Program-made: the position numbers and the translations under genes | The notes under the pieces: model-generated | Seen by the model: the letters and a program-made list of their open reading frames with translations, nothing else | Database searches by the model: none | What the model was told of the DNA's origin: nothing | DNA from: Cephalotus follicularis | Lineage: Eukaryota; Streptophyta; Magnoliopsida; Oxalidales; Cephalotaceae | Length of the DNA: 64,000 bases | Assembly: GCA_001972305.1 (NCBI GenBank) | Contig: BDDD01000879.1 | Coordinates: 69,262-133,261 of the forward strand | Reading direction: 5' to 3' | Shown: positions 3,337-52,300 of the stretch, in pieces | Position numbering within the stretch: position 1 is the first letter of the stretch | How the letters are laid out: each line of letters opens with the position of its first letter

Positions 3337-4266
3337 CCGATATTACAAGATATAATTGCTCAATTCAGTGAGAACAAGAAAATAGCTTAAAGTGTGAAGA
3401 GAGAGCTTTTTGAATGAACTTTGAATTTGATTTGATCTTTGTATGTTTGCTTTGCTTGATCTTTGTATGTATGATATTCTCCTTCTTTTTCTGAGGTTTC
3501 AGTCTTCCTTTTATAGCCATAAAAGGTTTGTAGCCGTTGCATGAATTATAAAAGCTTTTTGATTAAAGAATGTGTAGTTGCAATCTTTGATTTTTGTCTC
3601 TGCTGGTATAAAGACGTAAACTTCTTTAAAAAGGAGTCGATGTCATTGTAGCTGATAGCCGTTGGTAGTGCTTGTACTAGCCGTTCCTGGTTTCCCGGGT
3701 CTTGTTTATTTAAAAAGGCATCGACTTCTTTCAAAAGGCGTAGATGTCTTTTCTGGGAAATCTCCAGGTATTGAAGCTTTGAACATCACATCGACTTCTT
3801 CTGTGGGAGTCGATGCATTTTCTGGGAAATGCAGGTTGCTCTAGAAAGGCGTCGATGTCCATGGAAAGGCGTCGATGTCTTTCGTACGAACGTCGATGTC
3901 TTTACTAATAAGCATCGATGTCATTGCTCGAAAAAGTCCTGTAACTTTGGCACCTAAAGACGTCGATGTCTTTCAGATAGGGATCGACTTCTTTGGTACG
4001 GACGTCGATGTCTTTGCCTGTAAGAGTCGATGTCTTTATGTGAATTTGTCCTGTAACTTCTGGCATGAAAGGCATCGATGTCTTCTTGGAAGGCGTCGGT
4101 GTCTTTCTGTACGGACGTCGATGTTATTCCTTGAAAGTCGATGTCTTCTTCTGCATATGGTATTTTTGCTTTGATATTGATCTTGTAATTCTTTGCACAT
4201 TTAAGTAGACTTGTCAAATGCAAATATGTTATCATCAAAACAAGGATTGAGACTAAATCGTCAACA
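3337..4266 (-). repeat. Sire 3' LTR
   Basis: Minus-strand LTR starting TGTTGACG (4266 downward) and ending at about 3337, where the 5' copy has CCA. It is paired with 10573-11502 at equal length. Half of it consists of the phased TCGA palindromes listed separately. The short plus-strand ORFs at 3662-4174 are palindrome-array artefacts that recur in the other LTR. Confidence 0.9.
3630..4145. repeat. Phased TCGA palindrome array in Sire 3' LTR
   Basis: Roughly 18 copies of (G/A)(A/T)CGA(T/C)GTC, often inside GGCGTCGATGTCTTT. TCGA positions include 3721, 3791, 3810, 3852, 3872, 3893, 3915, 3963, 3984, 4005, 4027, 4075, 4118 and 4138, with degenerate units at 3741 (TAGA) and 4096 (TCGG). Steps are typically 19-22 bp. 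The spacer sequence varies while the core and the spacing stay. Confidence 0.85.
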
Positions 4267-4810
4267 ATCTCCCCCTTTTTGATGATGACAAAAATTTGCT
4301 CAAAAAGGCAAGAATTAAAGTAATACCAATTTAAAAATATAAGTGAATATCAACTAGAGATATCTTGCAAGGATCATATTGAGTGTGCAATATTCAAATG
4401 AGTCATAAGTTTTGCTTCCTTGAACAATTTCTCCAATATATATAAGCCTTTTCTCCAAGTTAACATTAACTTTTGAGCTTAAGCTCTAAACTTCCCTTTT
4501 GTTCTCCCCCTTTGACACTAACATATATTTTGAGCTTATTCTCCCCCTTTTTTGTATAGCATCAAAAAGTACTACAAAAGGCAGAAAACGTTAGCTCCCC
4601 CTTAATATAAGGAAGGGTGAAAAGAGTGAGTATAGGCATTATGCATAAAAATATCAAAGTATCGGCAATGAATATAATTATTGGCAATAATTGAGAAAAC
4701 TCATTCATTCAACACAACTGTATCATAAATCGAAAACATAAACATTAATTCACAACATCATTTCATGAACACTTAAACATTTCATTAATATCATAAAAGT
4801 ATTGACATCA
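4267..4810 (-). other. 3' non-coding region with multiplied polypurine tracts
   Basis: The plus strand carries TCTCCCCCTTTT-type runs at about 4268-4281, 4503-4513, 4539-4553 and 4594-4602, which are A/G-rich GGGGGAGA tracts in the element's own sense. The one at 4268 is adjacent to the LTR and would be the priming tract. Repeated polypurine tracts upstream of the 3' LTR are a reported peculiarity of Sireviruses. The rest is AT-rich and non-coding. Confidence 0.75.
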
Positions 4811-4898
4811 TTGTCTTTTACAAACAAGAATTTCATAAAGGAAATACAAATGAACATCAAGGTTCATTAAAAACAACAACAAAAATAGCAGCAAACAA

Positions 4899-5402
4899 TC
4901 AAGAGGTAGCAGGAGGGGTATTGGAATCGGATGATTCATCGCCTTCATCGCCCGAAGTTTCTTCGCAACGATCGATAGTCTTGGAGTCGGCAAGCTTACG
5001 TTCCATTCTTTTAAGACACCTCTTAAAGACTCTTAGATCGTAGTAGACGGTGTCATCAACATTTTCGTATTCGGAATGAAGTATTTTATGATCGTTCTCC
5101 AATCTACCGAGTCGCGTGTTGACTTGCTTAAATTTATCATCAAGCGAGGCTTGCATGGAAGCAAATTGAGAACGCATGAACTCCATCATCCTGTCATAAT
5201 CGGTGGTGGATGAGGAGCTTTGAGCTTGAGGAGGAGCAGGGGCAGCTTCTCCTTGAGCTTCCCAAGGAGGGTTCTCTTCTTGCTCTTCAATAGCAATCCT
5301 AGGCCCTTGATCCACTTTGGGGCAATTGGTCCAGATAACTTCCTGTTTCTTCCACCCCATCCGATTCAAAGTACTCTTATTGTATGTGTCTTCTTTCTTC
5401 AA
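4899..5402 (-). pseudogene. Sire extra ORF, C-terminal part (coiled-coil tail)
   Basis: 167 codons on the minus strand, in a different frame from the upstream 5399-6268 ORF. The frame continues upstream past its first Met as an in-frame Lys-rich stretch, so I read it as the C-terminal half of one ORF split by a frameshift near 5400-5430. Residues 70-140 are heptad-like and charged (MMEFMRSQFASMQASL and following), with an acidic Ser/Asp/Glu-rich end. The N-terminal part has DTYNKSTLNRMGW, a stretch I associate with the plant retroelement protein often labelled 'putative plant transposon protein'. No membrane segment is visible, so an envelope role is not supported. Confidence 0.65.
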
Positions 5403-6268
5403 CTTGGTTGCAATCTCTCTTCTAGCCGAATATGAAAGTGTTGCAAGACTTTGGTGAGAATGGATCCGAAAGGGAGTACGGATTTCTTTTGTGAGAATGC
5501 TCTAACCATAGTCTTGAGCATAAGGAGAGGAAAACAAAACTCAATTTTGGATAGGATGCACCACATAAGAAAAACTTGCATCCTAGACAATTTTGCATAC
5601 CCTCCACCGGTGGGTAAAAATTGATGTACAATGAGATGGTGGAGAAATCTATGATCTACTGACAATCGATTTGTGGTTAGTGCCATATTTGGATGTACAT
5701 TTGGATCGTTAGGGTACAAAATCGACAAAATTTGGTTAGGGTGAAAACCCTCAACCTCCGGCCACTTTTTGTGTTCAAACACATATAGACTGGTGTGTGG
5801 AATATGTAAAATAGAAGCTAGAATCCTAGCATCTAGATAGATCATTTCTCCTTTAACAGAAGAAGAGAGGGCAAATTCCTCATTTTGGTTAGAAACCATC
5901 CTAAGGTTAGAATAAAATTCCTTGACCAATTTGATGTAAAAAGGGTCAGAAATTTGTACTAGGGGAATGAGATGGAGGTCCTCTAACCAAGATACAAATG
6001 AAAACTTGGAGGAACAGAAATTTAAGTCAATATTTCTGCCTCCCATGACTCTTTTGTCAACAAAAGCTACACTTCTCAAAGGAATAAGGGCTTGCTCTTC
6101 GGATTCGGAAGCCGATTGGAGAGCAGGGTCGGGAGAAGGTTCTCTGATCTCAAGCCTCTGCTTTTTAGCAGATTTCGGAGGCTGAGAGGATGAGGCACCC
6201 TTCTTTTTGCCACCCTGTTTTGTCCTGACCATTTTATCGAACAGATGGTGTGCACAAGAGAAATACAC
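5399..6268 (-). pseudogene. Sire extra ORF, N-terminal part
   Basis: 289 codons between pol and the 3' LTR, the place where Sire elements carry an additional (historically 'env-like') ORF. The likely natural start is the internal Met that begins MVRTKQGGKKKGASSS, giving a basic Lys-rich leader. A globular domain follows, with WLEDL, EFYSNL, GEMIYLD and WPEVEGFHPNQIL-type stretches seen in plant-retroelement-only domain families. It ends by frameshift at about 5420 and the next ORF takes over. No signal peptide or transmembrane helix. Function unknown; a nucleic-acid or capsid partner role is speculation. Confidence 0.65.
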
Positions 6269-6809
6269 AGAGAATGATAAAAACGGATGATTTGGACGAC
6301 ACGAAAACAGTTGTTGAGGATGGATAAGGAATCAGGGAATGTATTTCGACCAAATAAAATGATTTTTGAAGAAAAACGAAAAGAGAAAAAAAATTTGAAA
6401 TCTCAGAAATGGAGGTAAAGTGAAGAAATGAACATGAGGTCGACTTTTTATGAAGAAGTCGATTTCTGAGTAAAAGACGTCGACGTGATTAAAAAAGAGG
6501 TCGACGCGTTCTTTAAAATAGAGCTACAAAAACGGTACGTTTTGAAAAGCATCGACGCGATTTAAAAGTAGTCGACGTGTTTAAAAGAGATCGATGTTTT
6601 TCAAAAAGAATCGACGAGATTTTCATAAGTCAGAATTTTTCCATAAAAGAAGTCGACGTTATTTTATAAAGCATAGAATTTCCAGAAAAGAAGTAGACTC
6701 TTTTGTAAAACAGAACAGAAAAATCAAGCAAAAATAGAGCAAAAACTGAAAATCAAACATCATATCAAATATGCATTCAATCAAACATATCATTCAGACA
6801 TCATAAACA
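6269..6809. repeat. Spacer between Sire pol and extra ORF, with phased TCGA palindromes
   Basis: No coding sequence. 6437-6700 repeats GTCGAC/ATCGA cores at 6440, 6459, 6480, 6501, 6552, 6572, 6591, 6611 and 6653, with a degenerate TAGA near 6694. Steps are 19-21 bp, with 42 and 41 where one unit is missing. The same core and step as in the LTRs appears here in the interior of the same element, upstream of the extra ORF. That position would suit a promoter or splice-control region, which is inference. Confidence 0.75.
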
Positions 6810-9317
6810 TCATTCAATCTCACATAAACCTAATTCTCCTCTAAACTTAGAAAAAGTGTTCTCATCTAAGGGTTTTGTGAAAATGTTCGCGACTTGTTCT
6901 TCGGTCGGGACGAAAACTAGTTCTATATCACCCTTTTCAATATGGTCTTTAATGAAGTGATATCTAATGTCTATGTGCTTGGTTCTTGAGTGATGAACTG
7001 GATTTTTCCCTAAGCAAATAGCACTAGTGTTATCACACAAAATTGGTACTTTTTCAATAGTAAACCCATAATCAAGGAGTTGTTGCTTCATCCACATTAC
7101 TTGTGCGCAACAACTGCCTGCGGCAATGTATTCAGTTTCGGTAGTTGAAAGAGCTACTGAATTTTGTTTCTTGCTAAACCAAGAAACGAACATATTGCCT
7201 AAGAATTGACAAGTACCACTTGTGCTCTTTCTATCCACTTTATATCCTCCGAAATCGACATTGGAGTAAGTGTGTAGGTCAAATGATGATTTCCTAGGAT
7301 ACCATAATCCTAAGGTCGGTGTATATGCTAAATATTTGAAAATGCGTTTTACGGCATGCAAATGTGATTCTTTGGGACAAGCTTGAAATCTAGCACACAA
7401 ACAAACACTAAACAATATATCCGGCCTACTTGCCGTTAAATAGAGCAAAGATCCTATCATACTCCTATATAGTTTTTGATCGATTGACTTACCTTGCTCA
7501 TATTTGTCAAGCTTTGTTGTTGTGCTCATGGGTGTCTTGTTCTTTTTAGCACTCTCCATCCCAAATTTCTTAAGTAAGTCCTTGACATACTTTGATTGAT
7601 TGATGAAGATGCCTTCCTCCAATTGTTTGACTTGAAGTCCGAGGAAATAATCGAGCTCACCCATCATGCTCATTTCGAATTCCACCTGTATAATCTTAGC
7701 AAAGTTCTTGCACAAGTTTTTGTTAGTAGAACCGAATATGATATCATCTACATATACTTGAACAATCAAAATTTCATTATTGACAGATTTTGTAAAAAAA
7801 GTAATGTCAATAGTGCCTCTTTTAAAACCATTTTCAAGTAAGTATCCACTAAGCTTTTCATACCAAGCTCTTGGAGCTTGTTTTAGTCCATATAAAGCCT
7901 TTGAAAGCTTAAAAACATGATTGGGATAATGAGGGCTTTCAAACCCGGGAGGTTGTTCCACATATACTTCCTCCTTTATTAACCCATTTAAAAAAGCACT
8001 TTTGACATCCATTTGAAAAAGGGTAAAATCTTTAAAAGATGCATATGCAAGCAACATGCGAATTGATTCTAATCTTGCTACTGATGCATAAGATTCATCA
8101 AAGTCAATTCCCTCTTCTTGGGAATAACCCTTACCCACAAGTCTAGCCTTGTTCCTAATTACAATACCTTGGTCATCTACCTTATTCCTATAAACCCATT
8201 TTGTATCTATTATATTTTGATTGCTAGGTCTAGGTACTAGGTTCCATACTTTACTCCTGTCAAATTGGTTCAATTCCTCTTGCATGGCATTGATCCAATT
8301 TACATCTTTTTCGGCCTCATTTATATTTTTAGGTTCGATTTGAGATAGAAAAGCAATATAATTATGATTAATGCTACTTCTAGTAGAAACACCTAATCTA
8401 GGGTTACCTATAATAGCTTCATGAGGATGTCCTCTTACCACCTTCAAGGTTTGATCATGAAGAGCTTCTTGATAGTCTTCTTGAGGTGCATCTCCTTCGG
8501 TAGTTTCCTCCCTTTTAGCTTCATCTATATTAATCTTGCTAACACCATTTTCAATGAAATCTACACAATCATCAACATTAACTTCTTGTGGAAGTTTAGG
8601 GTTAGATTCATCAAAAATAACATGCATTGATTCTTCAACTAATAGAGTTCTTTTGTTAAAACATCTATAAGCCCTACTAGTGGAAGAATAACCAAGAAAT
8701 ATGTCTTCGTCGACTTTTGAGTCGAATTTTCCAAGATGCTCTTTTCCATTATTGTGGATAAAGCACTTGCATCCGAAGGTGTGAAAATAACTAATGTTAG
8801 GCTTTCTCCCCCTCCATAACTCATATGGAGTCTTTTTGAGAATATGCCTAATTGATATGCGATTAAGAATATAACATGAAGTATTTATTGCTTCAGCCAA
8901 AAAGTATTTTGGTAAATTATTTTCATTCAAAAGTGTTCTACACATTTCTTGTAGAGTTCTATTTTTCCTTTCAACAACCCCATTTTGTTGAGGTGTTCTA
9001 GGAGTGGAGAACTCATGAATAAAACCGTTTTCATTACAAAAGTTTTCAAACAAATGATTTTCAAACTCCTTTCCATGATCACTTCTAATTTTAGAAATTG
9101 AAGTGTCTTTTTCATTTTGAACGATTTTACAAAAAATTAAAAATTCTTTAAAAGATTCACTTTTGTGGGCTAAGAAAATAGTCCATGTATATCTAGAAAA
9201 ATCGTCTACAATGACCATGGCATAAGATTTTCCTCCTAGGCTTCTAATATCTATTGGTCCAAATAAGTCTATATGTAAAAGTTGTAAAGGTCTAGTTGTA
9301 GATACAATGTTCTTACT
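6810..9317 (-). pseudogene. Sire pol: integrase core, reverse transcriptase, RNase H
   Basis: An open frame of about 835 codons on the minus strand that follows an in-frame TAA at about 9315-9317; its first Met is at 9218. In order: the integrase core (DLFGP..., then VDDFSRYTW, and [15 protein letters not shown] with the catalytic Glu region), a [15 protein letters not shown] region, catalytic YVDDIIFGS intact, [14 protein letters not shown], and an RNase H region. RNase H reads [17 protein letters not shown], where the family normally has a D-A-D motif, so one catalytic Asp is probably lost. It ends [18 protein letters not shown], as copia pol does. This is the longest uninterrupted retroelement reading frame in the window, which suggests a comparatively recent insertion. 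Confidence 0.92.
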
Positions 9318-10570: not shown

Positions 10571-10572
10571 TA

Positions 10573-11502
10573 TGGATATTACAAGATATAATTGCTCAAT
10601 TCAGTGAGAACAAGAAAATAGCTTAAAGTGTGAAGAGAGAGCTTTTTGAATGAACTTTGAATTTGATTTGATCTTTGTATGTTTGCTTTGCTTGATCTTT
10701 GTATGTATGATATTCTCCTTCTTTTTCTGAGGTTTCAGTCTTCCTTTTATAGCCATAAAAGGTTTGTAGCCTTTGCATGAATTATAGAAGCTTTTTGATT
10801 AAAGAATGTGTAGTTGCAATCTTTGATTTTTGTCTCTGCTGGTATAAAGACGTCGACTTCTTTAAAAAGGTGTCGATGTCCTTGTAGCTGATAGCCGTTG
10901 GTAGTGCTTGTACTAGCCGTTCCTGGTTTCCCGGGTCTTGTTTATTTAAAAAGGCGTCGACTTCTTTCAAAAGGCGTTGATGTCTTTTCTGGGAAATCTC
11001 CAGGTATTGAAGCTTTGAACATCACATCGACTTCTTCTGTGGGAGTCGATGCATTTTCTGGGAAATGCAGGGTCCTCTAGAAAGGCGTCGATATCCATGG
11101 AAAGGCGTCGATGTCTTTCGTACGTCCGTCGATGTCTTTACTAATAAGCATCGATGTCATTGCTCGAAAAAGTCCTGTAACTTTGGCACCTAAAGACGTC
11201 GATGTCTTTCAGATAGGGATCGACTTCTTTCGTACGGACGTCGATGTATTTGCCTGTAAGAGTTGATGTCTTCATGTGAATTTGTCCTGTAACTTCTGGC
11301 ATGAAAGGCGTCGATGTCTTCTTGGAAGGCGTCGATGTCTTTCTGTACGGACGTCGATGTTATTCCTTGAAAGTCGATGTCTTCTTCTGCAGATGGTATT
11401 TTTGCTTTGATATTGATCTTGTAATTCCTTGCACATTTAAGTAGACTTGTCAAATGCAAATATGTTATCATCAAAACAAGGATTGAGACTAAATCGTCAA
11501 CA
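10573..11502 (-). repeat. Sire 5' LTR
   Basis: Pairs with 3337-4266. On the plus strand it ends CGTCAACA at 11502 and is followed by solo LTR L. On its inner side it touches gag coding sequence with no primer site between them. Confidence 0.9.
10850..11390. repeat. Phased TCGA palindrome array in Sire 5' LTR
   Basis: The counterpart of 3630-4145, with the same unit order and steps of about 20-21 bp. Several units that are damaged in the other copy are intact here (GACGTCGAC near 10850, GGCGTCGACTT near 10954), and others are damaged here (GTTGATGTC near 11260). Most differences are CG to TG or CA. Confidence 0.85.
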
Positions 11503-11635: not shown

Positions 11636-11715
11636 ATGTCGATGTCTTTTAGATAACATCGATGTTTTTAGTGCCACATTGCATGGACATCGATATCCTT
11701 TGGAAGGCGTCGACG
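11636..11715. repeat. TCGA palindrome cluster in solo LTR L
   Basis: TCGA at 11639, 11659, 11690 and 11710 (steps 20, 31, 20) in GATGTCGATGTC, ACATCGATGT, ACATCGATATCC and GGCGTCGACGTC contexts. This lies outside the Sire LTR boundary at 11502, so it belongs to a different LTR family. Confidence 0.75.
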
Positions 11716-16214: not shown

Positions 16215-16605
16215 ATGCGTTGACATTTTCATTATAAGCGTCGATGCCTATCTCTTAAGCATTGGCGGTTTCAAAGAGAGCGTTGACGCTTTACACTTTA
16301 GCGTGGAACAATTTTGCAGTCTCGTGTTAAAGAGTCAACACCAATCTTTTTGGTGTCAACATGTTGAAAATTTAATGTTTAGGCGTCAACGCCATTTATA
16401 GTCATCAACGCCAAGAATTGCACAATTCAGACAGTAGCCATAATCATCAACGTATAATAAGGAAGATGTCAATGTCATGTTAAGCATCGATGCTTAACAC
16501 TCAAGTCTGCTCAATAACGCGAAGTTCAAATTGACGTGTAGTGCACCATTCACATATCAAAGCATCAACGTCCCAGAGATAAACGTCGATGCTTATGACG
16601 CTCCT
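16215..16605. repeat. Phased TCGA/TCAA/TTGA palindrome array in LTR B
   Basis: Cores at 16220 (TTGA), 16241 (TCGA), 16283 (TTGA), 16335 and 16356 (TCAA), 16386, 16405, 16447 and 16469 (TCAA), 16487 (TCGA), 16565 (TCAA) and 16586 (TCGA). Most steps are 18-22 bp or 42. Half the units have the CG turned into TG or CA. One unit is a perfect 22-bp palindrome at 16478-16499 (core AAGCATCGATGCTT). Confidence 0.8.
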
Positions 16606-17339: not shown

Positions 17340-17450
17340 GGGTCGACGCTTTCAGTGTTTTGTTTAGTTCACATCGACGCTTAATGTCGATGCTTTACTG
17401 CTTTCAATTATAAAAGTCGACGCCTAGTGACAAAGCGTCGACGCTATCAT
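17340..17450. repeat. Second TCGA palindrome cluster in LTR B
   Basis: TCGA at 17343, 17374, 17387, 17417 and 17438 (steps 31, 13, 30, 21), including GTCGACGCTTT, TGTCGATGCTTT and AAAGCGTCGACGCT. It lies in the U5-like part of the LTR. Confidence 0.75.
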
Positions 17451-19481
17451 CCCCTGTTTCAATAATTAGTTTATTTTGGAATGTTTAGGAGTAGCTTTTG
17501 ATAATATCCCTTCAATTTTTCATACTTTGCCTAGGTTGAATGGATTATAACTAATTTAGCTTGTTTCCTAGCATTCAACCCGTTACTGCACAACCGTACA
17601 CTTGCGTTATAAATTTAAAATATTCGAAATTCGTGAACAGTAGAGAAAGAGGAACTGATTACGTTTCTCAAGAATAATTGTAATACCCTGTTTGTCCGTA
17701 CGTATTTTCGGGCTTTTTATCTGTTTCGATAAGTAGTTGTCTACTTTGTGTTGGGTTTATGAGTCGGGCTAACTGATACTAGCCTTGACTTTGGGTATGT
17801 CATTATGTGTATGTGTTTTGGTTAAGTTTATGTTATTATTTATACATATTAAATTTTTTAAATATGCTTTTAAAAAAAACCTTTTAAAATAAATTCCTTT
17901 TAATTTTTAATTTTTATTTCTTTCTCTCCCTCCCTTATCTCTCCCGTCTCCTTCTCCCTCTCATGACTCTCTTCCGCATATCTCTCCCCCTTTCCTTCTT
18001 CTCTCCCTAAAAATATCCTCTTTTTCCTTATCTAAACCGATTCTGTTTCCTTATTCCCTATCTTACCCGTTTTGCTCCCCTTTTACTATTTAAGTATGCT
18101 GATGCCATTGTTTTTCTGCCTTTCTTGTCACACCCCGTTTTTTACATTCACGTATAATGGACCAGCATATGCGGTGATATCAGAAATAAGCAATATAATA
18201 ATATTCCAGCACAATTCATAAATTTGCGGAAGCATTCGATAAGCCGGAATTATAAAAGCCGTCCGCACGCATCCCATACTACGTGCGGTAAAACAACAGT
18301 TATCCTTAAACAAAAGGAAATACATCACTACAGGGTATGAACCGTTCAATACGTTACAAAATACAGTACATCATCCATAAAAATAACAACCTTAAAATCA
18401 CAATAAGAAGCTCTTCCAGCTTCAGCAGCAGTCTCCAAATGTCCTTGCTTAATCTGAAATTGTAGGGGTTAGCCGTTGTCCTCACTTGGCTAAGTAGAAT
18501 GATAATGTATGATAAGGAATATATGAATGCAATATGTATGACAGTTTATATCAAAATAACATTTGAATGGGCCAATATATAAGCAATCATGCCAAGTGGC
18601 CATAAACAATCCATATGCAAGAATACCGCACAAGGGTACAATCAATCAGTCCAGTGGTTGTCCGAAGACCAGTATTGGGCTCAAGACACCGCTAACCCCT
18701 AGCCTACGTCGAGCAACCTAGATATCATCCCAACTCCGCTGATGATAGGAGGCAAACAGTACTACCGGCATTTAACGGGTAGCTAACAGTCAGTTCTGCA
18801 TTGCAGACAGTGGGTGGATCTCTAGCCAACTCTGGCACCTAGGATCACCTCCGTAGTCAGTGATGGCTCCTATCACTCGACTAACGGCAGTAACATAGAC
18901 AATCAATTTAATCAGTGCAATTCAATGTAATATTACACATATATATAATATGCAATATAAAATTGTTTTCTTTAGAAATATTAACAATTCAGTAATCGTA
19001 CATCTCATAGGAGGAAAACGATCTCAGTAACAGTAGTGGTTTCCAATTCGGAAACAAAACAGTAGGCAGTAAAATAGTAGGTGTTAAATCAGTAGTTCCT
19101 TTAACAATAAGTGTTCTTTTGAAAAGGATAGTAAATGTCAAAATTTTGGGTTCAAGTCCCATAAATGATTTTCAATCTTGAAACTATCAGTAGTAGTGGT
19201 GTTAATAGCACCAAACAGTATATATACTAACATAAGTAGTATATGCAGCAACATTAAATCCAAAACAGTAATTCTTGTAAAAATGGTAATTTTCATTGAA
19301 AGTGATATTTAAACCATAATTTGTGTATATATATCACATAACTCGTTCGATCGATGCAATACCAGTAGTTATGATGTTAGATAACATCAAACAGTGTGTA
19401 CTATCCAGTGGTAACATGTACAATTCAATAACAATATCAAACAGTAACAATTCAATCAATGTATGAATTTCTTGCCCAGAA

Positions 19482-19551
19482 CAGTCGGCTGCCATGAAGA
19501 ACCAGTCGGCTGCTGGGTTGAGTAGTCGACTGCTTTGGGTGGCAGTCGACT
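19482..19551. repeat. Phased CAGTCGACTG/CAGTCGGCTG cluster (V LTR, first)
   Basis: Units at 19485, 19506, 19526 and 19546 (steps 21, 20, 20): two CAGTCGGCTG, one TAGTCGACTG, one CAGTCGACTG. Spacer sequence is unrelated between units. Confidence 0.85.
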
Positions 19552-20732
19552 GCCTCTGCCCAGAAAATGCAGAAATTGCAAGTCATGTGATGCCAATTCA
19601 ATTCCCAATCAATTCAATACATGCAATTATGCAGAAAATAACATACATAATATGCATACTCATATCTTCCATGACATATCATTACCCCTACCTCAAATCG
19701 CTATCCCAAGATCAATTGAGCTTGATCTTTCTCTTTGAGTTCCAAGTCACTTTTGTCAATCACTCTTTCAATTTCCAGTAGAATCAATCTATGCATGTTT
19801 GTTTATGAACACATGCATCAATATCAGTAAGTTTCAATCATTCATACAGTGGTTTAATCATTAGTCCACTAAAGTCTTTAACTTTCCTTTACCATTCTAT
19901 CACTTCCTTTCTTTGAACCTTATGCCAAATATCATTAAATCTCGAATCCATTGATTTTAACTTGTTTGACAGAAGATATATACATGAAATCAGTATGTAT
20001 ATATATACTAATCAATTATAATCATCATCTAGTTGCATCAAGAATTACTAGAACTCTTAAGTCTCTAGTTCCATTTTAAACACTCTCCATATTCCAATTA
20101 ATTTATTCAATCCATCCACTGATTTTGCAGGTTTCAACAGTAGGTATATACATACTTAGGAGTCATTAAGCATATCCTAACATTAACAACAATTATAATC
20201 CATTCTAGAGACTATATCACCAATTCCACTTGATTTCATTATTACTTCCCATTTCAATTCTAAAGATTGTTATTCCAATCCATTAACAGAAGATATACAA
20301 CATTCTTAGTCACATTTTATCAACATAACATCAAGAATTTCGGATTGAGAACTTACCAAGTCTCTAAGCCTCAAAGTCCCCCTTTTTGAGCTTTCTAACC
20401 TCTCCAATGCAAGCCTTCAACAATCCTTAGCAATTCTCACTTCACTCTGTGTTTCTAACACTCAACAACATCATTCAACATCTGATATAAGACCTGAATT
20501 CGTCAGATTTCTACCTACTCACATGCACTCACAATTTCTTTCTTTCTTTCCATCTCATGCCTTGTCTTTTCTTCACTTTTCTTTCATAATTTATCATTTA
20601 CAGGTAGTAGGTATGCAGAGAACATGCAAAACATTCCCCTTTTGCATGTTCTGGCAGGTGAGGAGACATAAGTGCCATTCCCATCTGTCCCTCTTGTCCT
20701 TGCACATGCTAGGCATCTGTCCAGGAGCAGTC

Positions 20733-20812
20733 CAGTCGACTGGATTTAGTGGGCAGTCGACTGCCTTCATCACGTGGCAAACAGTCGGCTGTTCCCCTGT
20801 GACAGTCGGCTG
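20733..20812. repeat. Phased CAGTCGACTG/CAGTCGGCTG cluster (V LTR, second)
   Basis: Units at 20736, 20757, 20785 and 20806 (steps 21, 28, 21). Same core as 19482-19551 and as the H1 array at 23972. Confidence 0.85.
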
Positions 20813-21031
20813 TTTGGGTTAAAATTAGGGTTTCTAACCATTGGTATTTTATCAATTGTATATCTATTCACCCCAAGCATTTACCAATCATAGAAATTAG
20901 TATAATTGGACAAATAACTCAAGTAAAATGTATATTTTATTTTAAAATTGGATCAATATACATTAATTGAAGTTACGGTTATTACATTCCCCCCTCCTTC
21001 AAGAAAATTCGTCCTTGAATTTAGCCCTTCA

Positions 21032-23971: not shown

Positions 23972-24183
23972 GAACAGTCGGCTGTCTATAAGACCAGTCG
24001 ACTCTTTCGCTTATGTAGTCGGCTGTCTTATGAATACAGTCGACTATTTTGTGTTGTGCAGCCGACTGGACCCCTGTCACAGTCGACTGCCTGCAGTTCT
24101 AGTTGTGTAGTCGCCTGGGCCTATTGCATAGTCGACTGCCACCCTTTGGACAGTCGACTGGAGTCCTATATCAGTCGGCTGGA
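23972..24183. repeat. Ten-unit phased CAGTCGACTG array in H1 5' LTR
   Basis: Cores at 23975, 23995, 24016, 24037, 24058, 24080, 24108, 24129, 24151 and 24172. Steps are 20, 21, 21, 21, 22, 28, 21, 22, 21. Variants are GTCGAC, GTCGGC, GCCGAC and GTCGCC. The intervening 10-12 bases are different in every unit. This is the cleanest array in the window. Confidence 0.9.
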
Positions 24184-32393: not shown

Positions 32394-34425
32394 TGTAACA
32401 CCCCCGAAAGGCGGGAGTCATTACGGTTTCCTAATCCAAAACATAACTTAGCATGTATCCATATTTAACGATATATCAAAGTTCTCCTTTATTCGTTTAT
32501 CAAAATATAACCTTAACTTTAATCAAAACACATGATGGTCTAAACATAACATTTCACAATCTAAAAACATAGTCTGAAACTAAAATCATAATATGAAAGC
32601 TGAAACATAAACCAAAATCGTAATCCAAAGTCATAAACTGAAAGGCATAACATTGTTCAAAGACAGGTCCTAACATGACCATAAGACAACAAAAACATAG
32701 ATGGACCAATCTCCTAGGTGATCCTCAGACATGGGTGAACATCACTCATCACACATTTCCCCGATGCTGCCCCTGAAAACCTGCCGCATGGAAATCAAAA
32801 ACGCGACTAAGCAAACCTCAGTACGGATATAGAATCATAAAACATAAAATGATACTTTAAAGAAAAGAAAATACCTGAACCTTTAAATAGCATATAACAC
32901 ATATATAAAGTAATTTAACATTATTTCAGAAAACAAAGGGAAACAGTCACATAAACAATCCTATCAATTTCATAACCAATATTTGCATTTCAAAACGTTT
33001 GAAAATTTTTCAATTTGATATCTGAAGGCAAAATCTGATTTTCAAGTAATATTCAAGTTTTAAATCATAATCCAAGATTCAAAGCCAAATCTAAAATTCA
33101 AAACGGTATCTAAAACAATATTCAATTTTTTTTTGACATTATCCAATTTAAGTATTTCAAAACAAAAACTTATCCGATTCCATAATCTCATGATAGAGAT
33201 CCAACACATATAACAGAGACTTATCCGATTCTGAAATCTCATCATAGATATCCAAAGTACATACACATTTGTATAAGTGCAAGGGGTTTGCAAGGCCCAC
33301 ATGCTCTGACAGAAAGACGTGTACTGCACTACACAATCAATCCCCAAAATCCGAATCCTTAACATATCCTAGGATCGACCCATACGCCTCTATCATACAT
33401 AACAAATCCATAAATCCACCTCATGGGATTTATTCATAACACAGAGAGATGCCATAGTCTAATCACATCACTACAGAAGTGTCATGTCCCCGTGCCAGGC
33501 CTTCGACATGCCTATGGTACGCCCCATAGGTGGGAAATATCTCTGTATATCCTTATCCAAAGTTAACACACTTCCTAATGTGAAAGTCATGTTCGTTTAA
33601 CATACTTAGATAGTAGAAGTCATGTTCCTCATCAAAAATTATTATACTTTCATAAATGGAAAATGATCTTATTTATTTTCAAAATAAATAGACGATTGCA
33701 TAACATTTCGTAAACATTTCAGAATCGAATTACAAGGCCAGAAAATATTCATTTTCACAAAAATATCATACCGACATTATTTCTAAACATATCAAAATTC
33801 AGAGCATAACGAAGTTCATAAAATCGAAGCAATCATATTCATAAAACAAAACTGAATTCATTTCAATAAAACCGAAGGAGTAATCCAAGAACGAAGAATC
33901 CGTAAATTATTCATAAAGTAAAATTATCTTTTTACTATAATAAAACCAATAGGAAGGTATCAAGGAACGAAACATCCGTACCTCATGCAATCACCAAAAT
34001 AACCTCAAGAATATATATATCGATAATTCTCTAGACCGCTCCTCGGTTGTTGCAAATATCTAACATAAAAAAAATCGTTCTCATAAGGACTTGAAATAAA
34101 ATCAGACCTCAACTCGTGGGTCACTATATACTATTCATGAGCATATAAGACAATGATAGGTTTTATAAGTCGAATTTGCAAAAACCTCATCTAAACGTAA
34201 TTTTGAATTCACCAAGGTAAGTCCAAGTTGTCCAATTCATCCAATTTCAAATCATAATACTAATTCAGCTCATAATATCGTAAAACGATTACAGAAATAC
34301 AGAATTCAACAGAAAACAGAATTTAACGGAGCAGAGTTCAGAGTTTACCAAAAGCAGACGGAACGGAGCATAGAGCCAGAATCACGTCGTGGAATTAGAA
34401 CGGGTCACACCTATGCAAAGAGCGG
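32394..34425 (-). repeat. M2 5' LTR, U5-side part
   Basis: Pairs with 28218-29740 (about 96% over the first 100 bp by eye) and includes the 510 bp missing there. The hairpin block is at 33444-33534. It is cut at AGCGG (34421-34425), the target duplication of T1; the rest is 60197-61007. Confidence 0.88.
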
Positions 34426-44099: not shown

Positions 44100-45179
44100 T
44101 GTAAAATCTCGTTTTTCTGTATAAAATTTATTTTAATTTGGACCCTTTTTAATTTTATTTTTGTGGGCTGCCTATTTATTTTAGATATGAATTACCCAAA
44201 ATTTTGCTTTGTTTGGCCTATTTCAATTTTCAATTTTGACAATTAAACATTTTTGGCAAATGGTTAAAGAAAATATTTTTTTTATTTAAAGCCATTTATC
44301 ACTTTTGTTTTAGAAAAGCCGAATTGTGCATTTTAAGAAGAAAATCTTTAAAAAAAAGGAAATTGTCCCTTTTGTTTTAAAAACCAAATTAGACAAAATC
44401 AATTTTAAAAGGAAAAGTTTATTCCTTTGTTATTTTGCCCTTATTGTCGCCACCCTCTCTCCCTTAATCTCTCCCTTTCAAAATTAGTTTCTCTCCCAAA
44501 CTTTCACTTACTCTCTCCCGCATTAACACTCTCTCTTTACGCATTTTGCCCTCGAACTTATGCACTCTGCCGAAATCTCTCCATGCATGCCTCTCACTTT
44601 CCTTTTCTTTCCCATGCACTACTCTCTTTCTTTTTTTTTCTCACGCGTTTTTGCCCAATTTAAGCCTGCCACCTTCCTTTTTCTCCTATCTCTCTTCTTC
44701 TTCGCTCGGGACGCCATTGTTGAGAAAGCTTAGTAAATTTCTTGCGCTTTCTCCCTCGGCTCCTTCATCACCCAGGTTTGTTTCACTGTGTTTTGGTTTA
44801 AGATATTGTTTTGCGGTGATTTAGACTATATAAATATGCATGTGTTAATCTCTCTTTGTCTCCCATGTTTCGTCTCTCTCTCTCTCTCTTTTGCTTGGAG
44901 CCGACCAGTCACTGCAAGTCTCGGAATCCTCTGCATTTCTCCTTTGGTTTGGCTTCATCCAGCTTCGTTCTTTGTCCTACTTTGATATGGAACTTTGAAC
45001 CGTCATTTTCCTTAAGCCACCGTTTGCATATGCCTGCATGTTTCTTTCCCTGTTTTTCTATATTCCAAGTTGTTTCCATCGGCATCATGTAATGGTTGGT
45101 GTAGCTGGTTGTGTTGACACCGTTGTTGCCCACAAATCTATCACCTTGGTTCATGCTCAGCACTAGGATCATCCTGCAT

Positions 45180-45730
45180 GTGCGTGTGTGTTGGTTGTGT
45201 GTCGGTGCTGTGAAAACAGAGTATATGATATGCATGTGTTGTGTGCGTGTTGGGTGTGTTTTGCATGTTATGTGTTGCGTATGTCTGCGTGTATGTGGTG
45301 AAGGCAGAGTAAATGTTATTGTTGTGTGTGCAGTGTGGTTGTGTGCAACCTTTGTGTGAGAGTTTGCATGTGGTTGGTGTGCAGTGAATGAGCCGTGTGT
45401 GTTGTGAAGGCAGTAAGCAAGTGTGCTGTGTGTGTGAGTTAAGTGTGGACAGTGTGTGTGTGTTGTGTGGCCGGGAGTGTGTGTAGTATGTGTATGTGTG
45501 CAGTGTGTGTTTTACATGTAATATGTGTATGTGTTTTGTGTAGGTGTGTGTATGTGTTGTAGGCAGTGTGTGCATGTGTTGTGTGCTGTGTGTGTTTTGC
45601 ATGCAGTAAGTGTGTGTGTGTACAAGGTGCAGAGTTATATGAGTCTGTGTGATTGGTAGTGTGTAGGCAGTGTGTGTCGCGTGTGCTGTGTGTGTGTTAA
45701 GTGCAGCCGGTGTGTGTTGTGCATGCCGTG
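45180..45730. repeat. Degenerate TG-repeat block, N3 LTR1
   Basis: About 550 bp of interrupted GTGTGTG with recurring GCAGTGTGTG, also present at 49630-50170 (LTR2) and 54610-55150 (LTR3, with a pure (TG) run near 55125-55145). The minus-strand Thr/His-rich ORFs here are by-products. Confidence 0.85.
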
Positions 45731-45835
45731 TTAATGGGTACTGCGTTATAGTGGTCTGTTCACAAATGCATTGTTTTAATCCTCACTTTCTTCAACATAC
45801 GCGTAACACTGTAAATACACTAAACTCTTGAAAAG

Positions 45836-46085
45836 TGCCGACACCTTACCCCTTTATTTCATCAAAGAGTCGACGCCTTCCCTCAATTGTGCATAATCCT
45901 GTTTTGTTTATGTAAAGCGTCGACGCCATCCTGCTTTGTTTCTGTAAAGTGTCGACGCTCTGTCCTCAAAGTTTGAGTTTTTTTAAATGTTTAAACGTCG
46001 CCTGTGTCCTGATAAACGTTGACGCTTATGCTAGAAAGAGTCGACGCTTTCGGCTTTATTCTAGATAAAGCGCTGACGCTTTTGC
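45836..46085. repeat. TCGACGC palindrome cluster, N3 LTR1
   Basis: TCGA at 45870, 45920, 45952 and 46041, with degraded cores between (CCGA, GTTGACGC, GCTGACGC), in GAGTCGACGCC, AAAGCGTCGACGCC and GTGTCGACGC contexts. Steps near 32, 50 and 21 bp. Same in LTR2 at 50280-50535. Confidence 0.8.
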
Positions 46086-46579
46086 TAGGATTTTTAATTT
46101 CTTATTTTGAATTATTGTTTTTATATATTTTAGACAACTGTACCAATGGAAGTGCTGCGTAGGGTTGTTTGATTTTCTCTTGAGGATAATTTTGGTGTAT
46201 ACGTAAGATACGGATTCTATCGTTTTTTGGCTATCTGATTTTATTGAAATAATCCAGTTTCACTTTTATGATTAGTGTACGAATTATTCTTCATTCTTGG
46301 ATATCTCATTCAGTTTTACCTAAATAAATTCAGTTTTATACTTTTGTGAACAACGTACGGATACATCGTTCTTTGGTATACTCCTTTTGTTTATTAAGTA
46401 AATCATTTTATGTTTCTATGATTTTTCTCCTGATTTTATTCGTGGATTTTGAGCATGATTTTCAATTACAAAAATATGCAAATTTTTACGATATGATATG
46501 GTTTTGTGAGTAAACCAATATTTGGAAATGATTTTGATAAATCATTATTTTTTTTAATACTGAGAATATATTGTTTCCT

Positions 46580-46795
46580 ACCTATGGAGATACCATAGGC
46601 ATGTCGTAGGCCTGGCACGGGGGCATGACACTTCCGTAGCGGTGTGATTAGTCTACGACGTCTCTCTTAATATGTATCCTGAGGGTAGGATATGGATCCT
46701 TTTGAGGCATATGAGTCGACTCTAGTTATTGTAAGATAAGATTCAGTATTGGAATTCATTGTGTAGTGCCATACACGTCATTCCGTTTGGAAAGT
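46580..46795 (+). promoter_or_regulatory. Hairpin block, N3 LTR1 copy
   Basis: CCTATGG-AGATA-CCATAGG (perfect stem), GTCGT...ATGAC (stem with one G-U), CACTTCCG-TAG-CGGTGTG, then GTGTA-GTGCCA-TACAC. The last keeps its stem although the loop has changed relative to H1. Confidence 0.6.
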
Positions 46796-47645
46796 GGAGT
46801 CTGCAGGATCCCTTGCATATATGTATGTATTTAATTCGATATTGCATCTCTCAGTGTAAGACTTGGTTTTTGAAAAGTTGTGGAAACTGATATGCTTTGA
46901 TACATATGTTCACTTTATGCTGAATTGTGAATATATATATATATGATTCAACATGAGCATCTTTTGGATTTGCATAAACTGATTTTGTTATGAACTGTTC
47001 TATTTTTGCAAAAAATTGTATTGTTCCATATCGTAAACTGTTTCGTAATTTGTTTTGTTTCGTAAAAGATTTTATTTCGTATTATGAAGTTTTGAATACT
47101 GTTTTGTATCAGACACTGTTCTGTTTCGTATTTGTTTTGATTTGCAACTATTTTATTTGGTTTCGTCTCGTAACTGTTAAGATTTTCGGAATTGATATAT
47201 TGCGTAATCTGCTTTGTTTCGTACTGTTTTATGTTTTTATATCCGAACTGAGGTTTGCTCAGCCGCGTTTTTGTTTCCATGCGGCAGGTTATCTGGAGCT
47301 TTGGGGGCAAGAGTGATAAGAGAGCAACCTTTGATTTGAGGATTTTATTGAGTTAAATTTCTTTTAGTAATGCTATGTTTTTCAGGACTATGATTTCCAG
47401 TTTTAGTTATGTTATCATATTATGTTTTAGACCACCACGTATTAATTTTGAGACAAAATTTGTAATAAGCAGAATTTAAGTTTTGAATCTGAGATTTTCT
47501 TTTATCAGTTTAATTGGAGACGTGTTACTATTTCTAATGACATAAGTTTAGAATATGCTGATATATTTCGATTAGTTCGGTTTAGTGTGACATTTCTGAT
47601 TCTTAATTGGGGGTGACATTCTGATCCCGAACCAGGGGTGTTACA

Positions 47646-48537
47646 AGTTATGGTATCAGAGAATAGGTTTCATTTCTTAGAAAGCCTATCTAGGTTTGAC
47701 CTGTGAGATGGGTAGAGATTGGGTTAGGGTTATTCCTTAGTTGTCGTTTTTGTTTACCCTTGACCAGTTTGTTGTTTGCTGCGTTATATTCCGGTTCTTG
47801 TTCGTAGATGGCACGTAGAGGTGGACGATCAAGGAACATTAACCGGAAAGCCGGGACAACTATTGCACGAGAAGGTGTACGGAGTGGTTGCACAAGTTGT
47901 TCCCCAAGTGGTAACCCAAGTGGTTCACGCAATGCAACAGTAGAAGTTGGAACAGGAGCAGCAAAGGAATGTGGAAAATACGGCCAAAAATATGGAAACA
48001 GAAAGGCTGGTTTTTCAGGAGGCCAGACCGAAAAGAGTAAGGAAGTGGACTAAGGATGCTTGTCAGGATCAGAATTTGAGAAACCAGGATAAGGGCCATG
48101 GTGGAGGATCGGTCAACGAGAATAATCCCAATTTTATTCCTGTTGCATAGTGTGTTACGTGTGGTAAACGGCATCCTGTTGGAGCGTGCTATAGGGCTAT
48201 GGGAGCTTGTTTCCGGTGTGGTCAGATGGATCATATCTTTAAAGATTGTCCGAACCCTCGTCCTAAGGGTAAAAGAAGAAATGGTAAAGATGCTAAGCAG
48301 CGTAGTGAAGGAGGCAATGTGTTTGCGACTCATTGGATTGCAGATACTCCAGGTATTGTTTCGTTCTTTCTTGCTTTTGGTAATTGTAGGGAGTTTGCTT
48401 TGTATGTTATGGGTCAACTCTTTCCGTGGGAGCTGAGTTCTATGTTTGGCATTTTGCTGTTCCTTCTTAGTTGTTCGATTTAGGTTGGGAGATGTTTTAG
48501 ATTTCGGGACGAAATCTTCTTTTAAGCGGGGTGGAAA
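47646..48537 (+). pseudogene. N3 interior 1: leader and gag remnant
   Basis: Primer site TGGTATCAGAG at 47651-47661. Gag starts MARRGGRSRN (47808); after about 20 codons the reading moves to the frame with VVPQVVTQVV and METERLVFQEARPKR, in which the capsid is essentially absent. After a TAG at 48148-48150 come CVTCGKRHPVGACYRAMGAC and the zinc knuckle CFRCGQMDHIFKDCP. The text then jumps from pre-protease (ATHWIADTPGIVS) to a short tail and the polypurine region AAGCGGGGTGGAAA at 48524-48537. Protease, RT and integrase are missing. Confidence 0.8.
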
Positions 48538-49310
48538 TGTAATATTCCGTTTTTATGTATAAAATTTATTTTAATTTGGACCCTTTTTAATTTTATTTTT
48601 GTGGGCTACCTATTTGTTTTAGATATGAATTACCCAAAATTTTGGTTTGTTCGGGCTAATTCAATTTTGAATTTTGACCAATAAACATCTTTGGTAAATG
48701 GTTAAAGAAAATATATTTTTGTATTTAAAGTCATTTATCACTTTTGTTTTAGAAAAGCCGAATTATGCATTTTGAGAAGAAAATCTTTTTAAAAAAAGGG
48801 AATTGTCCCTTTTGTTTTAAAAACCAAATTATACAAAATCAATTTTAAAAGGAAAAGTTTATTCCTTTGTTATTTTGCCCTTATTGTTGCCACCGTCTCT
48901 CCCTTCCAAAATTAGTTTCTCTCCCAAACTCTCACTTACTCTCTCCCACATTAACACTCTCTCTTTACCTCTCTCTCCCGCATTTTGCCCTCTCACTTAC
49001 GCACTCTGCCGAAATCTCTCCATCCATGCCTCTCACTTTCCTTTTCTCTCCCATGCACTACTCTCTTTCTTTTTGTTTTCTCACGCGTTTTTGCCCAATT
49101 TAAGCCTGCCACCTTCCTTTTTCTCCTATCTCTCTTCTTCTTCGCTCGGGACGCCATTGTTGAGGAAGCTCAGTAAATTTCTTGCGCTTTCTCCCTCGGC
49201 TCCTTCATCACCTAGGTTTGTTTCACTGTGTTTTGGATTAAGATATTGTTTTGCGGTGATTTAGACTATATAAATATGCATGTGTTAATCTCTCTTTGTC
49301 TCCCATGTTT

Positions 49311-49347
<37 letters not shown>

Positions 49348-52300
49348 GCTTGGAGCCGACCAGTCACTGCAAGTCTCGGAATCCTCTGCGTTTCTCCTTT
49401 GGTTTGGCTTCATCCAGGTTCATTCTTTGTCCTACTTTGATATGGAACTTTGAACCGTCACTTTCCTTAAGCCACCGTTTGCATATGCCTACATGTTTCT
49501 TACCCTGTTTTTCTGTATTCCATGTTGTTTTTATCGGCATCATGTAATGGTTTTTGTGGCTGGTTGTGTTGACACCGTTGTTGCCCATAAATCTATCTCC
49601 TTGGTTGATGCTCAACACTAGGATCGTCCTACATGTGCGTGTGTGTTGGTGCTGTGAAAACAGAGTATATGATATGCATGTGTTGTGTGCATGTTGGGTG
49701 TGTTTTGCATGTTGTGTGTTGCGTATGTGTGCGTGTATATGGTGAAGGCAGAGTAAATGTTATTTTTGTGTGTGCAGTGTGGTGGTGTGCAACCTTTGTG
49801 TGAGAGTTTGCATGTGGTGTGTGTGCAGTGAATGAGCCGTGTGTGTTGTGAAGGCAGTAAGCAAGTGTGTTGTGTGTGTGAGTTAAGTGTAGACAGTGTG
49901 TGTGTGTTGTGTGGCCGTGCGTGTGTGTAGTATGTGTATGTGTGCAGTGTGTGTTTTGCATGTAATATGTCTATATGTGTTGTGTAGGCCTGTGTGTATG
50001 TGTTGTAGGCAGTGTGTGCATGTGTTGTGTGCTGTGTGTGTTTTGCATGCAGAAAGTGTGTGTGTGTACAGGGTGCAGAGTTATATGAGTCTGTGTGATT
50101 GGTAGTGTGTAGGCAGTGTGTGTTGCGTGTGCTGTGTGTGTGTGTTAAGTGCAGCCGGTGTGTGTTATGCATGCCGTTTTAATGGGTACTGTGTTATAGT
50201 GGTCTGCTCACAAATGCACTGTTTTAATCTGCACTTTCTTCAACATACGCGTAACACTGTAAACACAATAAACTCATGAAAAGCGCTGACGCCTTACCCC
50301 TTTATTTCATCAAAGAGTCGACGCCTACCCTCAATTGTGCATAATCCTGTTTTGTTTATGTAAAGTGTCGACGCCATCCTGCTTTGTTTCTGTAAAGCGT
50401 CGATGCTCTGTCCTCAAAGTTTGAGTTTTTTTAAATGTTTATACGCCGCCTGTGTCCTGATAGACGTTGACGCTTATGCTAGAAAGAGTCGACTCTTTCG
50501 GCTTTGTTCTAGATAAAGCGCTGACGCTTTTGTAAGGATTTTTAATTTCTTATTTTGAATTGTTGTTTTTATATATTTTAGATTACTGTACCAACGGAAG
50601 TGCTGCGTAGGGTTGTTTTATTTTCTCTTGAGGATAATTTCGGTGTATACGTAAGGTACGGATTTTATCGTTCTTTGGCTATCTGATTTTATTGGAACAA
50701 TCCAGTTTCACTTTTATGATTAATGTACGGATTATTCTTCATTCTTGGATATCTCGTTCGGTTTTATACTTTTGTGAACAACATACGGATACATCGTTCT
50801 TCTGTATACTCCTTTTGTTTATTAAGTAAATCATTTTATGTTTCTATGATTTTTCTCCTGATTTTATTCGGAATAAAATTTAGATGTTTAATCTAGGTAC
50901 AGATTTTCGATGTTCCTTTATTTTTTAGAATTTTGAAAATAAAGCCAGGTCTAATATTTTTTAAATTAAATATTCCTGACTTTATAAAATTGAGTTATGA
51001 TTCGTTTACGAAAAAATTCTATACGAACATCTCTTTTATTGTGAAAATTAAATGACTTGGTTCATGAATGTGAAAATGTACGGGTTTCTCTTTTTTAGTT
51101 TATTCTTTTGATATTTATGGAAATGATTCCAACTTCGTTACGGATTTTCTTTCCTTGAATTTAAATTTTGAAAATGTTCGGATTTCTTCATCTATGGGTC
51201 TTATCCTATGATTTTATTGAAATGAATTCAGATATGATTTTTGCACGGATTTTTCGTTTTGACAGATATGTTTCGACATGATAAAATCTGTTCTATTACT
51301 TTTTGGCGTAAAGTTAAATATTACTGATTTTATAAATTGAGCATGATTTTCACTTATGAAAGTATGCTAATTTATATAATAAGGATTTTGAGCATGATTT
51401 TCAATTACAAAAATATGCAAATTTTTACGATATGATATGGTTTTGTGAGTAAACCAATATCTGGAAATGATTTTGATAAATCATTATTTTTGTAATACTG
51501 AGAATATATTGTTTCCTACCTATGGAGGTACCATAGGCATGTCGTAGGCCAGGCACGGGAGCATGACACTTTCATAGCGGTGTGATTAGTTTACGATTTC
51601 TCTCTTAATATGTATCCTGAGGGTAGGATATGGATCCTTTTGAGGCGTATGAGTCGACTCTAGTTATTGTAAGATAAGATTCAGTATTGGAATTGATTGT
51701 GTAGTGCCGTACACGTCATTCTGTTTGGCAAGTGGATTCTGCAGGATCTCTTGCATATATGTATGTATTTAATTTGATATTGCATCTCTCAGTATAAGAC
51801 ATGGTTTTTGAAAAGTTGTGGAAACTGATATGCTTTGATACATATGTTCACTTTATGCTGAATTGTGAATCTATATATATATATGATTTGACATGAGCAT
51901 CTTTTGATTTGCATAAACTGATTTTGTTATGAATTGTTCTATTTTTGCAAAGATCTGTATTGTTCCATTTCATAAAATGTTTCGTAATTTGTTTTGTTTC
52001 GTAAAATGTTTTATTTCGTATTATGAAGTTTTGAATACTGTTTTGTATCGAACACTATTCTGTTTCGTATTTGTTTTGATTCGCAACTGTTTTATTTGGT
52101 TTCGTCTCGTAACTATTATGATTTTGGGAATTGATATATTGCATAATCTGTTTTGTTTTGTACTGTTTTATGTTTCTATATCCGTACTGAGGTTTGCTCA
52201 GCCGTGTTTTTGTTTCCATGTGGCAGGTTATCTGGAACTTTGGGGGCAAGAGAGATAAGAGAGCAACCTTTGATTTGAGGATTTTATTGAGTTAATTTTC

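Follow-up and report, generated by a model that had tools for sequence, protein, structure and literature searches.

Palindromic repeated motifs (RMs) have been described in 13 Sireviruses, where they lie in the long terminal repeats (LTRs) and, in the nine elements with ENV, also before ENV (Bousios et al. 2010, PMC2829016; here and below, published work is cited for the parts of each source that were consulted). They consist of many dyad-symmetric units in the upper LTR half before the TATA box, are CpG-rich, and were called Sirevirus-specific, being absent from classic copia elements (PMC2829016). We analyzed 64,000 bp of the Cephalotus follicularis genome (contig 879 of assembly GCA_001972305.1, positions 69262-133261, hereafter the window), which contain a Sirevirus-type copia element (Sire) and several Ty3-type LTRs. 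A first-pass annotation had reported TCGA-centered palindromes in these elements. Our analysis found the units at the places where they had been reported, and found further ones beyond the window. All results concern this one genome and are drawn from sequence data only.

Three other systems are comparable. Maize Sirevirus LTRs carry palindrome clusters in a fast-evolving cis-regulatory region (Bousios 2016 as cited in PMC10760457, PMC5311732), and the maize palindrome has also been reported in Helitrons (PMC10760457, PMC5311732). The arrays in the window likewise cluster in the LTR cis-regulatory region, but the maize word, CACCGGAC...GTCCGGTG, is different, and the consulted parts of these two papers do not mention sharing with Ty3 LTRs. 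Heat-responsive elements in Brassicaceae COPIA are similar in that host factor sites were gained repeatedly in several LTR families, once by duplication, but there the factor is known (heat shock factor) and the families are copia (PMC5059998). VANC proteins of VANDAL elements target dense arrays of a single short motif in noncoding regions; these arrays change through the formation of tandem repeats, and the effect of one VANC extends to an unrelated element (PMC5735166). Dense short-motif arrays in noncoding transposon DNA that change by tandem repetition are common to both cases; VANDALs, however, are DNA transposons with a non-palindromic motif in one orientation and an element-encoded binder (PMC5735166).

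Sire lies on the minus strand and agrees closely with a Sirevirus. Its 3' LTR (3339..4266, 3' end not delimited) is 97.7% identical to its 5' LTR (10575..11502), and both carry an array, at 3638-4139 (17 counted, mostly imperfect units) and at 10854-11375. In the 5' LTR, a TATAAAA at about 10745-10751 stands ~100 bp downstream of the last unit. The single pol open reading frame (ORF; 6810..9317) contains Pfam integrase and RVT_2 domains in this order, which is that of Ty1/copia. The ORFs downstream of pol (4899..6331) are env-like by position only; the one at 5399-6331 matches PF20167 (Putative plant transposon protein, E 6e-23), and a Pfam scan of ORF 4899-5501 gave no match. Between pol and this env-like region lies a second array, in the linker (6437..6700, with 11 counted units at 6441-6695). 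Four identical polypurine tracts (PPTs), AGGGGGAG, start at 4269, 4504, 4541 and 4595 on the minus strand, within 4269..4602 between the ORFs and the 3' LTR, matching the number of about four in Sirevirus linkers. The one at 4269-4276 is followed by two bases and the LTR start TGTTG at 4266, so that it starts 10 bp upstream of the 3' LTR, as in Sireviruses. The TATCAGAGC junction of the primer binding site (PBS) has no match near 10575, and the internal 5' end of this copy seems to be deleted. At 10575-10600, a gag-side ORF runs into the 5' LTR, with no recognizable junction of 5' LTR and PBS.

The Sire arrays therefore have the layout of the published RMs, in the LTR before the TATA box and in the linker before an env-like ORF, together with the four linker PPTs (PMC2829016). 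With 17 units, the LTR array exceeds the at least eight palindromic units upstream of TATA that define an RM region, and the 11 linker units are extra copies upstream of an ENV known by position only. The linker array also fits the internal-promoter idea that PMC2829016 discusses for the array before ENV. This Sirevirus half of the observation is already published in kind (PMC2829016). The word itself differs: the published RMs, except that of Tnd-1, have a CGG-CCG signature (PMC2829016), which is absent here, where units read AAAGNCGTCGACGNCTTT; the arrays are thus RM-like and not CGG-CCG RMs. Two of the 13 published RMs are nevertheless TCGA-centered, CGGTCGACCG of Vitis and ACAATCGATTGT of Tnd-1 (PMC2829016). 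The main difference is the range of carriers, since related units, in two classes, also occur in Ty3 LTRs; the consulted parts of PMC2829016 hold no analysis of Ty3 LTRs, and nothing on RM spacing or phase. A search of the open-licence literature, in which the evidence was partly weak, gave no report of arrays shared by copia and Ty3 LTRs. The sharing between Sireviruses and unrelated Ty3 elements thus appears to be new.

A single common core type had been proposed for all arrays; we found two palindrome classes instead. Class I, AAAGNCGTCGACGNCTTT, occurs in the Sire LTR and linker, in the solo LTR L (array at 11636..11715, strand not assigned, steps of 20, 31 and 20 bp), and in LTRs B and N3. 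B, probably Athila/Tat-like by its end sequences, carries two arrays on the plus strand, one at 16215..16605, upstream of TATAAAAGG at 16713, and a second of five units at 17340..17450 (B2); six of the nine counted cores in the first are TTGA or TCAA. N3 carries its array in two LTR copies on the plus strand, at 45836..46085 in copy a and at 50280..50535 in copy b. Class II, CAGTCGRCTG, occurs in the Ty3-type V (V1, 19486-19547, and V2, 20737-20807, minus strand) and in the LTR of the Ty3 element H1 (array of ten units at 23972..24183, plus strand). It is also found elsewhere: in sequence L052 (132-583), AGGGGGAG, two bases and TGTTG, a Sirevirus-type PPT/LTR junction, precede class II units, which shows that this class is not limited to Ty3. 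The ratio of observed to expected CpG is 1.3-2.7 in class I arrays (2.67 in the linker) and 0.70-0.79 in class II, against 0.70 for the window.

To follow class I across elements, we used a symmetrized 24-bp model, trained only on the 17 units of the first Sire LTR and reading CGGAAAGACGTCGACGTCTTTCCG. Scores above 11 were reached at 26 sites outside the Sire LTRs, compared to 1.6 in shuffles, and all 26 lie in the linker, L, B and N3 (22 when the four in N3 copy b are left out). B gave 7 matches, B2 4 and N3a 6, where shuffle means were 0.21, 0.08 and 0.16. Local shuffles back each class I array (linker, L, B, B2 and N3), with 0/500 reaching the observed value, while the same local test gave 0 hits in H1 and V1. 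By this measure B and N3 carry genuine units, found by a model that was trained on Sire. When the TCGA columns were set to zero and units were compared with 143 other TCGA sites, class I families recognized one another's flanks with an area under the curve (AUC) of 0.93-1.00, V and H1 recognized each other with 1.00, and recognition between classes was weaker (0.47-0.95), though these AUCs are flattered and partly circular, as B and N3 units were chosen by a consensus that includes flanks. Mutual recognition of flanks indicates that the shared feature goes beyond TCGA and comprises two site types.

Spacing was measured over nine arrays, with only one copy each of the Sire LTR and of N3 included. 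Our results showed that 40 of 63 steps between units are of 19-22 bp, and that the 41 steps of 17-24 bp have a mean of 20.7 bp (sd 0.9). The unit lists were edited by hand (removal of 3771 in Sire, 6395 in the linker, 11497 and 11604 in L and 45973 in N3; insertion of 16470 in B and 46074 in N3), but the unedited lists gave a very similar 41/66, so the edits do not make the result. By array, steps of 19-22 bp account for 11/16 in the Sire LTR, 8/10 in the linker, 2/3 in L, 3/3 in V1, 2/3 in V2 and 8/9 in H1, and for 4/12 in B and B2 together and 2/7 in N3. The phasing at about 21 bp that had been claimed for every array does not hold for B and N3, which are barely phased; 21 bp does not describe the N3 steps of 32, 50, 32, 46, 21, 22 and 32 bp. 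For H1, the ten units stand as first reported, and the order of steps is corrected to 20, 21, 21, 22, 21, 28, 21, 22 and 21, two positions having been swapped. In a placement simulation of H1, 8 of 9 steps within 20-22 bp were reached in 0/200,000 runs. Counts of strict TCGA pairs at lags of 19-22 bp were matched by 0/500 shuffles in the Sire LTR, linker, L and V2, by 1/500 in V1, 5/500 in B2 and 7/500 in H1; there are no such pairs in B or N3. When no word was preselected, GTCG ranked first and TCGA second in excess at these lags among all 4-mers that occur 20 times or more once the window is deduplicated.

Gaps of 41-42 bp where a unit is missing are real, as noted before, but long steps are mixed and also measure 28, 31-32, 46, 48, 50 and 51 bp. 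Taken modulo 10.5 they cluster weakly (p about 0.017), the best-fitting period is 17.8, and the 28- and 48-bp steps break the phase. Helical phasing of the units is therefore weakly supported, and with it the idea that sites are selected on one face of the helix. A palindrome search free of any assumed core (6 or 7 of 7 pairs) gave an excess in Sire, L, B, B2, V1 and V2 and a weaker one in N3a; there was none in H1 and only a small one in the linker and in N3b, where units are imperfect. A stricter unit filter gave only seven clusters and missed the linker and B.

The same words and spacing recur throughout the 1,577,397,061-bp (1.58-Gb) assembly. CAGTCGACTG occurs 197,377 times compared to 939 for the reversed word, and GCGTCGACGC 73,186 times compared to 121. 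We also took 20 unselected 10-kb stretches at even steps of contig number (200 kb, of which 9,567 N), to which five were later added. In the 20 stretches, 61 TCGA pairs fell at 19-22 bp where 14.1 were expected from lags 23-62, and GTCG and TCGA were again first and second of 256 4-mers at these lags. A genome without this peak would have spoken against the first-pass annotation; on this sample the autocorrelation peak is present and sharp. In the 25 stretches, counts at lags 19, 20, 21 and 22 were 14, 28, 31 and 11; above a median of 5, additional peaks appeared at lags 42, 49-51, 63 and 70. Lag 50 (20 pairs) exceeded lag 42 (11 pairs); the spacing is mainly a nearest-neighbor one and not a long-range lattice. 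Nineteen arrays were found, spread over 12 of the 25 stretches; ten shuffled versions of the sample, in which 1-kb blocks with N stayed unshuffled, minus the N, contained no array. The sample contains 78 TCGA-centered palindromic 10-mers in 238,388 bases, 26 of them CAGTCGACTG and 22 GCGTCGACGC, while each of 14 control palindromes with permuted arms or other cores occurs there 0 or 1 times.

The six LTR families had been called unrelated, which overstates their independence, since H1, N3 and the LTR X (32394..34424, minus strand) are homologous and align in several blocks. X serves as a negative comparison, as no TCGA array was found in it. The H1 array lies at about LTR position 250-460 and the N3a array at 1737-1986; by extrapolation from the aligned blocks, both map to approximately the same stretch of X, which has no array there. 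Array class cuts across this descent, H1 and N3 having alignable LTRs and arrays of different classes. Similarly, the B LTR aligns with the A LTR, which is without an array. Judged from these alignments, array presence and class vary among members of one LTR lineage, and a given class turns up in different lineages. In a cross-family LTR alignment at E 0.01, no arrays aligned among Sire, B and N3; there were short matches (24-45 bp) between Sire and L and between the Sire LTR and its own linker. Clustering the arrays did not fix the number of independent families. With 1200-bp flanks, 24 of 25 arrays merged because elements nest; with 450-bp flanks, 29 arrays (four added by hand) gave 12 groups, a number affected by known fusions, as Sire and L fused because they are neighbors in the window and one class II array was joined to class I arrays through 62-70 bp matches.

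We consider, with somewhat better than even confidence, that the arrays are enhancers of the LTRs to which a sequence-specific protein, probably one of the host, would bind. Arrays lie upstream of TATA in Sire, as described above, by about 125 bp in B, and perhaps in N3. Enhancer sites for such a protein would be in keeping with this position, with units that are dyad-symmetric, with core conservation and with recurrence in several families. The first interpretation of these arrays, as sites for a host dimeric protein with convergent gain or exchange among families, survives in part: copia and Ty3 share the core and part of the flanks, and cores outlast spacers in relatives of H1, which fits sites for a DNA-binding protein and gain or exchange among families, whereas its six unrelated families and its one core type are not supported, and evidence from resident copies speaks against selection keeping the sites there (an insulator or nucleosome role). 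In the mechanism that we propose, the candidate protein, probably a host factor acting as a dimer, would bind each unit, and neighboring units would jointly enhance the element promoter; the linker array would perhaps do the same for an env-like ORF with an internal promoter of its own. Spread would be favored in lineages that acquire, exchange or enlarge arrays, and single resident copies would then decay, partly at the core CpG.

The conservation evidence comes from four diverged copies of H1, namely that of the window and L048, L049 and L072. Identity in this family is 0.882 in cores, 0.676 in spacers and 0.628 in flanks. With the cores taken from each copy in turn and scored in the remaining three, identity ranged over 0.83-0.90 (cores), 0.61-0.77 (spacers) and 0.60-0.66 (flanks), and the core was highest in 4/4 tests. 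Circular shifts of the mask reached the core value in 2, 9, 0 and 11 of 848 cases in the four tests; for the window copy both lie at one-unit offsets and for L048 most lie near unit multiples, while those for L072 do not. The L family, whose array layout recurs in L060 and, with a step of 32, in L049, points in the same direction with smaller differences (cores 0.920, spacers 0.856, flanks 0.828).

Between resident copies the pattern is reversed. In Sire, changes affect 11/272 unit positions compared to 4/250 in spacers and 10/656 elsewhere (Fisher 0.027 for the latter); in N3, they affect 11/128 compared to 1/128 in spacers (Fisher 0.005, only 0.085 when compared with spacers plus outside). 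CpG transitions make up 3 of the 11 unit changes in Sire and 6 of the 11 in N3, and gene conversion between units could contribute to the changes in Sire. We read this as units that were probably constrained while a lineage was active and that later decay, partly at CpG.

Several observations weigh against the enhancer explanation. TATA boxes for H1 and V are unconvincing, and the flank comparison has the circularity given above. In the V1 family, with effectively two independent sequences, cores (0.757) are less conserved than spacers (0.836) and flanks (0.837). Over 77 bp, the V1 array has one weak inverted match (73%, E 0.003-0.004) with a portion of the H1 array; they may have arisen from one source, and the match speaks against full independence of V and H1. 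Finally, array RNA folds unusually well, as an RNA-based function would have it. As for the binder, an AP2/ERF factor of CBF/DREB type is a long shot that we hold weakly. Its listed barley site, RYCGAC (PMC4482647), is present in 53/72 units (17/18 in V and H1, 5/5 in B2, 2/9 in B), but this adds little because the GTCGAC core itself fits RYCGAC, and an 18-bp palindrome is not accounted for by a CBF motif with a single site.

The likeliest alternative, though we consider it unlikely, is that RNA hairpins from palindromic LTR transcripts feed small-RNA silencing, as has been reported for maize Sireviruses, the arrays being a by-product or an arena of conflict. Folding compared with dinucleotide shuffles gave z-scores of -5.4 for Sire, -7.4 for H1, -2.6 for N3 and -2.8 for the linker, and maize Sirevirus palindrome regions are described as highly variable small-RNA hotspots (PMC10760457, PMC5311732). 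However, good folding is to be expected of any palindrome array regardless of function, and the z-scores therefore cannot tell the explanations apart. Hairpins need complementarity and not a fixed TCGA core with few arm types in two superfamilies, and the control palindromes that we tried are almost absent.

Quite unlikely, too, is a functionless palindromic unit of about 21 bp whose copy number grows and shrinks through slippage or unequal exchange and which passes between elements by recombination. Tandem duplication is visible inside Sire, both as 112-bp and 21-bp periods and as internal alignments, and in N3 as a 32-bp unit, and copies in the H1, V1 and L families differ in length by 42, 42 and 43 bp, the size of two units. 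The V1 family favors this neutral explanation, and the weak V1-H1 match raises it and slightly lowers that of enhancer arrays. On the other hand, the H1 cores are informative and its spacer words hardly so, and the retention of cores but not spacers across H1 relatives strains it, as does the lack of mutual alignment among the Sire, B and N3 arrays at E 0.01.

We regard as improbable an anti-silencing role in which an element-encoded, VANC-like protein recognizes the units and removes methylation, and from which unrelated elements with the same motif would profit in trans. The likeness to VANC targets in dense short-motif noncoding arrays and tandem-repeat evolution (PMC5735166) and the high CpG of class I speak for it, but class II arrays are not CpG-rich, and sharing between copia and Ty3 suits a host factor better. 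Nucleosome or insulator structures selected on resident copies, also suggested in the first-pass annotation, are very improbable: 21 bp is close to two helical turns and the long steps show the weak clustering at 10.5, but units change faster than spacers between resident copies and the phase is broken by 28-, 48- and 50-bp steps.

Returning to the enhancer arrays, a bolder extension, which we find doubtful, is that one DNA-binding protein of the plant, or a small family, reads both classes and drives the LTRs of copia Sireviruses and of several Ty3 lineages as a retrotransposon regulon. If true, this would be a genome-wide regulon built by repeated gain and exchange of phased arrays, in which lineages change from one of two site types to the other. 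A common reader would also make it easier to understand the joint expansion of several element lineages. Sirevirus palindrome arrays had no known reader; the same words are now seen to recur hundreds-fold over reversed controls, and with word, spacing and matched controls defined, the question of a Sirevirus activator becomes directly testable.

The Ty3-type elements of the window have the following structure. V (18126..20986, minus strand) has a PPT-like tract adjoining 20984 and, beside its 5' copy, a PBS at 23010-23021, presumably of the initiator-tRNA type; its internal region contains Pfam integrase and RNase H domains. The V 5' LTR (23026-23721) is without ~2.6 kb held by the other LTR, and runs into a second integrase-end copy, 98% identical to 20928-21393. 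The H1 LTR ends at 25565 (its start is not delimited) and is followed by a PBS at 25571-25582 with one mismatch and by Pfam gag/protease (25987-27207) and reverse transcriptase (27602-28222) domains. The N3 LTRs span about 44100-47645 (copy a, PBS at 47651) and 48538-52584 (copy b, PBS at 52590), each PBS with one mismatch. N3 was assigned to Ty3 through LTR homology with H1, and no domain was found in the one ORF scanned. At 44100-55240, it forms a chain of three LTRs, the last truncated, with two internal parts of ~0.9 kb between them.

Three minor observations complete the analysis. Viral contigs were tried as a source of relatives; 39 stretches gave one match apiece, which we took as chance. 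A 375-bp direct duplication (234-608 and 1188-1562, 98.7% identical) lies in an A-type LTR region. Another Ty3-like LTR type, Y, at 34426-37296, with related stretches at 43873-44080 and 57069-57423, has tandem units of 24-31 bp with words like CATGCGCCCGAGG. GCATGC palindromes also cluster in Y, where 300 bp hold six of them compared to at most four in 40 shuffles; this is possibly a third kind of palindromic LTR array.

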